Of a stretch of 43,661 bases of DNA, positions 4,289 through 6,045 are shown in pieces. The notes under the pieces are model-generated. The model saw only the letters and a list, made by a program, of their open reading frames with translations, ran no database searches and was not told the DNA's origin. The DNA lies in the IMG/VR virus record IMGVR_UViG_3300047408_000046, positions 1 to 43,661 of that record. One strand, 5' to 3'. A program made the position numbers and the translations under genes. Numbering within the stretch: the first letter of the stretch is position 1; each line of letters starts with the position of its first letter. Origin of the DNA: a virus.

Positions 4289-4959
4289 AGATCGACTTCA
4301 TCTGGCAGCACGATGGCAGGTTTGACGGTTGAAACCTTCTCATCCGGGGCAGATCCTACGGAGGTGTCTTCGACTACGGATAAGCCGCGCAACGCATCGG
4401 CAAAGGCATCACGACAGGCCCAGCTTCGTGCCCGCATCTGCAACATTCGTTTCGGGTAAGCGTTGTGAACGTTTTTCCCGTGTAACCCTGCGCGTTTTGC
4501 GTCGTTTACGCTAAATGTGCGTTTAACAGGCAGACGCCCGCGCCGATGGACTTCACAGATGGCGGTAAGCTCGTCACCAGTTCCTGCGAAGGTCTCGATG
4601 ACATCCTGGCAATCGGGATGTTGTAGAACGAGGCCAAGGAGCGCGTCACCCCAGACGCTAGGGCGCCCGTTTGTGACCATGATATTAGTAAGCGACCAGA
4701 TCGGGGTAAGACCGAGTTCGAGACCGGCCTGTAACCGGATCAAAGCGACTTCTGGCGTGTTAATGTCTTTGAAGGTGCCGCTGTTGACTACGGCCATGCA
4801 GAAGCGCCACATACTTTCCATGTCGGAAAAGGTGAGGCCACGGTTGCCAGCCTGGACGATAGCTTTCTTCGGCTTCCTGACGCGAAGGGCTTTGTTATTA
4901 GCGTGTTCCTGCGCCGGTGCTTCTTCGTTCATTACTGCTAGTTGGTTTTCTTCGGTCAT
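4285..4959 (-). CDS. recT: RecT-family single-strand annealing protein
   Basis: A RecT-like recombinase that coats single-stranded DNA and anneals complementary strands. Family features: TPEVALIRLQAGLELGLTPI (residues 68-87), then NIMVTNGRPSVWGDALLGLV (92-111), and near the end KRMLQMRARSWACRDAF and ADALRGL. At 224 residues it is slightly short for RecT (about 270), with a shortened basic N-terminus. It is coupled to the RecE-like exonuclease. The pair would support replication, circularisation of packaged ends and genetic exchange. Confidence 0.85.
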   Translation of the reverse strand: MTEENQLAVMNEEAPAQEHANNKALRVRKPKKAIVQAGNRGLTFSDMESMWRFCMAVVNSGTFKDINTPEVALIRLQAGLELGLTPIWSLTNIMVTNGRPSVWGDALLGLVLQHPDCQDVIETFAGTGDELTAICEVHRRGRLPVKRTFSVNDAKRAGLHGKNVHNAYPKRMLQMRARSWACRDAFADALRGLSVVEDTSVGSAPDEKVSTVKPAIVLPDEVDL

Positions 4960-5813
4960 AATAGTTTTCTGATTTCGCGTAATAGTTCGTAGGCAACCTG
5001 GCTTTGAATGCTGTTACCAAGTGCCTTCAGACGCGATACGCGATCTTTCACGCCCTTGCTCACTCTTGGGACTCCTTCCCATTCGTCGGGGTATTGCCAA
5101 TAGCCGTGTAGTCCTTCGGGTAGCCGATGAGCCACTCCACGAACTGCGGGTTCAGGGAGCCAAGTTGCCACTCCTCCTTCGTGGTTCCGCGAATCCTTGT
5201 ATCGTTGCCCAGCATCGCCTGCATATTCCCATTCGGAGTTCCCGCTGCGTCCTCGTTTGCTGATGGACTTGGCAACAATCCACAATCTGTCTCGTCTGTG
5301 TCTGGCATCGACGGCACAAGCCGGAATAACAAACGACCTTGTGGCGTAGCCGATTCCTTCCAGGTCAGAAAGCACGTTGTCGAGTTCCATCGAGATGAAG
5401 CCAGCAACCTCCTCGATAACAGTCCAAGTGGGTCGTGCTTCGCCAATAACGCGGAACATCTCAGGCCAGAGCGCACGGTCATCTGCCGAGCCTCGTCGTT
5501 TCCCGGCAACGCTGTAGGGCTGACAAGGAGGACTCCCTGTGATGAGGTCAACTCCCCGGAAATTGGTTCCGTCGAAGTCGAAGATGTCGGAGTGGATGGG
5601 AACTCCTGGGAAGTGCTTTGCAAGCACTCGCTGTGCGTATCGCTCAATCTCAACAAATCCAAGTGTGCGGAACCCGCTCCATTGGGCGGCAAGTCCCCAA
5701 CCGGCAATTCCAGAGAAGATGTCGAGGTGCGTCGGTTGACTTCCTGTTCCAGTGTCGGGCGAAAGTTGGGGCTGCTGTAGCCCCCGATCTTGTTCGCTCT
5801 TGGTGTCGGCCAC
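4956..5813 (-). CDS. dcm: DNA (cytosine-5-)-methyltransferase
   Basis: Motif I is DIFSGIAGWG (residues 31-40), motif IV GSPPCQPYS with the catalytic Cys, motif VI IEEVAGF, motif VIII DARHRRDRLWIVA and motif X LKALGNSIQSQVAYEL near the C-terminus. Motif VI reads EEV instead of the usual ENV. The target-recognition region between VIII and X is short. The start is GTG 5813, with GGAG six nt upstream. It probably methylates phage DNA against host restriction. A second open frame (5060-5818, same strand) covers 88% of this gene. Confidence 0.88.
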   Translation of the reverse strand: MADTKSEQDRGLQQPQLSPDTGTGSQPTHLDIFSGIAGWGLAAQWSGFRTLGFVEIERYAQRVLAKHFPGVPIHSDIFDFDGTNFRGVDLITGSPPCQPYSVAGKRRGSADDRALWPEMFRVIGEARPTWTVIEEVAGFISMELDNVLSDLEGIGYATRSFVIPACAVDARHRRDRLWIVAKSISKRGRSGNSEWEYAGDAGQRYKDSRNHEGGVATWLPEPAVRGVAHRLPEGLHGYWQYPDEWEGVPRVSKGVKDRVSRLKALGNSIQSQVAYELLREIRKLL

Positions 5814-5818
5814 ATCAT
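5060..5818 (-). CDS. Overlapping-frame protein resembling phage methylase-associated proteins, 252 aa
   Basis: A 252-codon frame on the same strand as the methyltransferase, in another phase and almost fully nested in it. Its first ATG overlaps the upstream stop (ATGA), as at most junctions in this operon. It starts MMWPTPRANK and ends with GSLNPQFVEWLIGYPKDYTA. It also holds CFLTWKESATPQGRLLFRLV. I recall the WPTP...LNPxWVEWLMGFP pattern from stand-alone phage proteins annotated as cytosine methylases. The start ATGs lie 1 and 4 nt after GGAG, closer than ideal. It could be a translated overprinted gene, a frameshift partner or a fortuitous frame. Confidence 0.45.
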   Translation of the reverse strand: MMWPTPRANKIGGYSSPNFRPTLEQEVNRRTSTSSLELPVGDLPPNGAGSAHLDLLRLSDTHSECLQSTSQEFPSTPTSSTSTEPISGELTSSQGVLLVSPTALPGNDEARQMTVRSGLRCSALLAKHDPLGLLSRRLLASSRWNSTTCFLTWKESATPQGRLLFRLVPSMPDTDETDCGLLPSPSANEDAAGTPNGNMQAMLGNDTRIRGTTKEEWQLGSLNPQFVEWLIGYPKDYTAIGNTPTNGKESQE

Positions 5819-6045
5819 ACTCCGTTCATTGGCTTGATGGTGCGCTTTGCGAGAAACGATTCGATGTCGCAGGCGCGTACGGTGTGAGTCTTAGCCGATA
5901 AGATGATGATTGGCAGATTGCTGCGAATCCATTCCGGCGACTTATGAAGTAGCTTCGCGGCGGAAGGCACAGGAATGGTTTCAAGTTTGCGTAACCGCTC
6001 CAAGATTTGCGATGCCTCGCGTTCTAATTGACTAAGGGCAGTCAT
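5815..6045 (-). CDS. Small HTH-like DNA-binding protein, 76 aa
   Basis: The N-terminal 25 residues are a charged helix (LEREASQILERLRKLE). Then IPVPSAAKLLHKSPEWIRSN has the helix-turn-helix spacing of excisionase-like domains, followed by DIESFLAKR, the usual end of HTH_17 folds. It is likely a DNA-binding accessory protein. Its stop TGA overlaps the ATG of the frame nested in the methyltransferase gene. Moderate confidence in the fold, none in a specific target. Confidence 0.6.
   Translation of the reverse strand: MTALSQLEREASQILERLRKLETIPVPSAAKLLHKSPEWIRSNLPIIILSAKTHTVRACDIESFLAKRTIKPMNGV

Follow-up and report, generated by a model that had tools for sequence, protein, structure and literature searches.

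The small gene of the two-polypeptide methyltransferase M.EcoHK31I reportedly lies inside the large gene, in another reading frame. The genes of M.AquI overlap by a few codons only. In M.EcoHK31I, the large polypeptide carries motifs I-VIII and X, and motif IX is found only in the small one; M.AquI is a C5 methyltransferase split after motif VIII into alpha (motifs I-VIII) and beta (the recognition part and motifs IX-X) (PMC3404938). The locus described here belongs to a virus and was analysed in the IMG/VR record IMGVR_UViG_3300047408_000046, positions 1 to 43,661; this whole stretch of 43,661 nt is referred to as the window. With a probability of about 0.78, we propose that a single orphan phage C5-cytosine methyltransferase is made of two polypeptides, both encoded at this locus in overlapping frames, in the manner of M.EcoHK31I.

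Compared by motif layout, the locus shares with M.EcoHK31I (E. coli, YGGCCR) the two polypeptides, the nested ORF and a motif IX confined to the small polypeptide. Unlike M.EcoHK31I, which is part of a restriction-modification system and whose recognition domain is assigned to the large subunit, the window enzyme would be an orphan phage enzyme, and recognition is placed in the small polypeptide because no folded recognition domain is predicted for the large frame. The motif distribution of M.AquI (CYCGRG) is that of three relatives of the locus (L208, L334 and L337), but the window gene is almost wholly double-coding and its motif X remains in the large frame. In the PHROG collection, the two reading frames of the window, and likewise those of phage K1H, match two separate families, phrog_363 for the large frame (dcm; 4e-73 in the window) and phrog_1008 for the small one (alt; 2e-24), both labelled 'DNA methyltransferase', whereas here they turn out to be one locus read in two frames. 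Genes in the alt frame within dcm are also annotated in phage Lily (LILY_63, 'g62 internal gene'), K1H (gp33) and fKuEco01 (KE1_033, 'Mte8-like'), for which no evidence or function is reported in the records or literature searched.

The features of the locus are listed in Table 1. By the ORF coordinates, alt is nested in dcm apart from its first 5 nt. Each alt codon is made of positions 2 and 3 of one dcm codon and position 1 of the next, so the dcm wobble base is always the second position of an alt codon. The TGA of an upstream ORF (5815-6045) overlaps the alt ATG as ATGA, and the GGAG listed in the table probably serves the starts of both alt and dcm in the window; no good internal alt start is evident in the window sequence. 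The N-terminal extension of alt is 54% identical to one relative (L072) and 37.5% identical to an internal repeat of another (L049). On the opposite strand, an antisense ORF of 217 aa (5127-5780, plus) has a weak match to phrog_38519 (7e-4), a family whose members may themselves be ORFs antisense to dcm genes.

Table 1. Features of the overlapping dcm and alt genes, in window positions
Feature	Position	Strand	Remarks
dcm (alpha)	4956-5813	minus	285 aa, GTG start, C5-cytosine methyltransferase
alt (beta)	5060-5818	minus	252 aa, ATG start, +1 frame relative to dcm
Shine-Dalgarno-like GGAG	5820-5823	minus	nearest one 5' of the alt ATG (5818 or 5815) and the dcm GTG (5813)
alt N-terminal extension, MMWPTPRANKIGGYSSPNFRPTLEQEVN	5735-5818	minus	resembles the WPTPRA repeat preceding LNPxWVEW inside alt proteins of relatives
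alt N-terminal half, PGNDEARQMTVRSG...CFLTWKESATPQGRLLFRLVPSMP	5291-5512	minus	conserved; consensus over 89 distinct loci; overlies dcm motifs IV-VIII
alt motif IX-like element, LNPQFVEWLIGYP	5117-5155	minus	same bases encode EPAVRGVAHRLP in dcm
dcm residues 196-263, position of recognition domain and motif IX	5025-5228	minus	AF2 pLDDT below 50
dcm motif X, RLKALGNSIQSQVAYELL	4977-5033	minus	AF2 helix 271-284, pLDDT about 95; synonymous constraint stops here

The dcm product contains C5-methyltransferase motifs I-VIII and X, among them GSPPCQPYS, HRRDR and LGNS, and matches PF00145 at 2e-32 over residues 30-183 only. Judged by the PF00145 motifs, alpha is the predicted catalytic chain of a C5-cytosine DNA methyltransferase. 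Motif VI of the window gene (5400-5417, minus) reads EEV in place of the usual ENV; the asparagine is kept in 70 of 71 relatives. The AF2 model of the catalytic domain has a pLDDT above 90, and its best Foldseek match is M.HhaI. Alignment of the dcm profile to M.HhaI covers motifs I-VIII only, and hhalign to relatives that carry all motifs in one frame likewise aligns motifs I-VIII (E 7e-58, residues 24-187 only). A recognition domain and motif IX were not found in the dcm chain: the profile matches end after motif VIII, and AF2 predicts disorder at the place where they would be expected, with no helix or strand from residue 196 up to residue 258.

No family matching alt was found in Pfam and NCBIfam searches. 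The best conserved portion of its C-terminus is an LNPxFVEWLMGYP element (the bases at about 5155-5117 are read as NPQFVEWLIGYP in alt), at which hhalign aligns the alt family with the one-frame methyltransferases (probability 96.6, E 6.9e-10). Since hhalign sets alt on motif IX and dcm on motifs I-VIII, alt would supply what alpha lacks; by these alignments, beta has a match to motif IX and alpha has none. In the one-frame actinophage relatives (e.g. L119, L331 and WillSterrel, L107), the dcm frame reads ...L.P.F.EWMMG.P.GWV...LGN.VVPQ. This segment lands on M.HhaI 274-307, from motif IX to X, in a position collinear with the catalytic match, and is weak on its own; for one such relative the element is placed on M.HhaI 282-307, where the direct alignment is collinear with an own score below zero. 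The identification as motif IX comes by way of the one-frame relatives and not from direct homology to M.HhaI. On this basis, the preferred reading of the alt element is the ancestral C5-methyltransferase motif IX, moved into the other frame. A motif IX fold in alt lacks structural support, because AF2 models alt by itself poorly (pLDDT 60) and the model finds no match among solved structures, with weak hits only to other phage proteins labelled as methyltransferases. In the N-terminal half of alt, a beta hairpin is predicted at residues 149-170 with modest confidence. It looks as if this half is the only part of alt that is truly overprinted on the catalytic domain.

The actinophages carry the same elements in different combinations. 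In most mycobacteriophage loci (24 of 30 in the actinophage set), the recognition-IX-X module stands in the dcm frame, together with an alt N-terminal half over motifs IV-VIII. In L334, L337, L338 and L341, dcm ends by motif VIII and the module is attached to the alt N-terminal half; these mycobacteriophages thus have on the alt frame what L313-L331 have on the dcm frame. L208 is split in the same way as these four, and a single ORF of it runs from alt into the C-terminus of dcm. The frame differences among mycobacteriophages could include sequencing errors, and they recur in separately sequenced phages. Read from these gene layouts, the recognition-IX-X module moves naturally between the overlapping frames. 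The alt proteins of L316, L335 and L339, which have no motif IX, end in a common C-terminus, PSLEQAIEIA.G.LPRE....LP.SW.P.

Since 24 of 30 actinophage loci keep the alt N-terminal half with motif IX already in dcm, the role of this half must exceed the supply of motif IX. Its persistence there would suit a real overlapping protein with a job of its own, such as a methyltransferase inhibitor or regulator or an anti-restriction protein, rather than a catalytic subunit, and so would the fact that neither sequence nor structure reveals the function of this half. However, alpha has neither motif IX nor a small domain that folds, conservation of the alt C-terminus is strongest at precisely the motif IX-like element, and the module is swapped between the frames. 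We thus consider a separate job for alt unlikely.

Less probable still, and in our view quite improbable, is programmed ribosomal frameshifting to a one-chain enzyme that would take motifs I-VIII from dcm, recognition and motif IX from alt and motif X again from dcm, with alt not being an independent product. The resulting motif order would be the canonical one, and the joined ORF of L208 would fit, but two shifts would be required, and the strong selection that is seen on the alt N-terminal half over motifs IV-VIII would be unnecessary if the ribosome simply shifted after motif VIII. Many relatives, moreover, have an alt ATG that precedes the alt core by about 31-34 codons and is itself preceded, at 7-8 bases, by a Shine-Dalgarno-like sequence. 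Such a sequence is present at 127 of 136 candidate alt starts, compared with 50 of 117 in the third frame, a difference to which dcm motifs could contribute.

Selection on both frames was assessed in 71 non-redundant dcm genes that had been retrieved by dcm alone. Synonymous codon entropy at conserved amino acids was compared with synonymous permutation within each gene. Before the alt core (dcm codons 28-86), the ratio of observed to expected entropy is 0.998 (mean z -0.2), and across the core (codons 87-185) it falls to 0.67 (mean z -8). Several dcm codons are nearly fixed, namely Ala165 GCT (69/71), Leu144 CTC (61/62), Ser149 TCT (33/33), Asp260 GAC (49/49) and Pro256 CCC (54/56), and most synonymous sites regain their freedom at codon 265, shortly ahead of the motif X GN. 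The K1H-like set gives the same profile, with ratios of 0.9-1.0 before, 0.27-0.8 inside and 0.9 after the overlap. The permutation ignores relatedness among the genes, but relatedness would be expected to depress the entropy of the flanks as well, where no such drop is seen. The actinophage genes do show lowered flanks, and this set was therefore left out of the constraint argument.

Stop codons give the same picture. In the 71 relatives, the overlap contains 26 alt-frame stops where 375 are expected, and 59 genes have none, compared with 1.2 expected. There is no depletion in the other same-strand frame (878 stops, 910 expected) or in the alt frame across the dcm N-terminus (164 stops, 132 expected). 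That the alt frame is open by accident, or because the dcm protein is conserved, is refuted by the codon permutation and the unconstrained flanking dcm codons. In favour of such an origin, conservation of one frame can itself produce tblastn similarity in a shifted frame, and the window alone, with no stop seen where 4.6 are expected after synonymous codon permutation of its dcm, gives a small but non-zero P of 0.0009. Both frames are under purifying selection, and alt is a real gene.

These results also bear on an earlier note on this DNA, which had pointed out a 252-codon frame sharing the dcm locus and starting at an ATGA overlap. This frame is confirmed, and all peptides quoted in the note are present in the window. 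Its suggestion of an overprinted gene is strongly supported by the synonymous constraint, the stop depletion and the constant frame in dcm-retrieved viral relatives; the comparison of synonymous sites across homologues, which it had named as a check, found dcm codons constrained in the overlap only. The frameshift product that it had also considered is not needed, as alt has a conserved N-terminal half of its own and, in many relatives, its own candidate start signals.

A tblastn search with alt matched 77 phage records, and in the first six (C72C1, Lily, Lc-Nu, R23.9, a Porphyromonas phage and HB10c2) alt is open within dcm in the same relative frame. Scanning IMG/VR with the alt alignment yielded 504 relatives; of those inspected, 101 had an alt ORF, and in all 101 this ORF overlaps dcm in the one +1 frame, at GC contents of 36-64%. 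A second IMG/VR scan used dcm only and thus did not select for alt, which was nevertheless found in the same relative frame in all 80 viral loci retrieved. The same is true of 80 out of 80 loci resembling E. coli K1 phages (K1H-like), and 75 of 80 named bacterial genomes retrieved with dcm have alt in the +1 frame, complete with the motif IX-like end. As the locus sets consist of best matches to the query, these frequencies apply to this clade and not to all C5 methyltransferases. The double-coded arrangement is common to hundreds of related phages and prophages. In E. coli genomes, where the search was aimed at M.EcoHK31I, the inspected neighbourhoods of K1H-like matches are prophages. Double-coded pairs are also seen in apparent prophages of Paracoccus aminovorans (L492, 3857-5048) and Dyadobacter (L448, 3998-5068), and the former adjoins a second DNA methyltransferase-like gene.

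The earlier note had further supposed that stand-alone phage cytosine methylases might have arisen from the alternate frame of dcm, and had proposed to look for the motifs where the two genes do not overlap. As stated, this idea is unsupported, since the 'stand-alone' records that were inspected overlap dcm. In Pseudomonas phage PMG1 (gp57, L104) and Xanthomonas phage FoX4 (gp11, L106) alt alone is annotated, and dcm is open over the same bases; in the K1H, fKuEco01 and Lily records both frames are annotated. An unbiased DNA pattern search with VEW[LMI]MG[FY]P gave 121 sites, of which 115 are overlapped by dcm in the +1 frame, three share their frame with dcm sequence, and three have disrupted or displaced frames. 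No independent alt family without dcm was found with the alt profile, the DNA pattern or tblastn against phages and plasmids, a search that was not exhaustive. Within the range of this search, we reject a stand-alone family; the inspected records overlap dcm, are fused with it or have disrupted frames.

For the two-polypeptide enzyme, the following mode of action is proposed. Alpha would provide the catalytic domain with motifs I-VIII and X, and beta would provide the missing small domain in trans, that is motif IX and probably the target-recognition region, to which its N-terminal half, read over the catalytic motifs, would be joined. Alpha and beta would come together on the DNA to methylate it, and this methylation would probably shield the phage from host restriction. 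That both proteins are made, bind each other and are both needed for activity, as well as their biological role, we infer. Somewhat more tentatively, at slightly less than even odds, the locus may represent an ancient, large clade of phage and prophage C5 methyltransferases with both subunits double-coded, in which the beta N-terminal half was overprinted on the catalytic domain and the ancestral recognition-motif IX module was captured, reversibly, by the second frame. Beta might then have an additional role in specificity or control, which is possible because its N-terminal half is retained even where alpha already has motif IX.

Two-polypeptide enzymes of this kind are known; in the literature searched, no account was found of how widespread they are, how far the double coding extends or how the module is exchanged between frames. 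Nor was any description of a phage-wide overlap found there, few subscription papers being among those searched. The M.EcoHK31I-like design in phages seems to have been largely overlooked. Annotation pipelines usually retain one frame, and one enzyme subunit is therefore absent from many phage and prophage annotations; past tests of an 'orphan Dcm' by itself may have used only one half of the enzyme. Among long same-strand overlaps of double-stranded DNA phages, this locus ranks with the clearest, with both frames conserved and testable, and the natural swaps of modules between its frames let the history of an overprint be traced.
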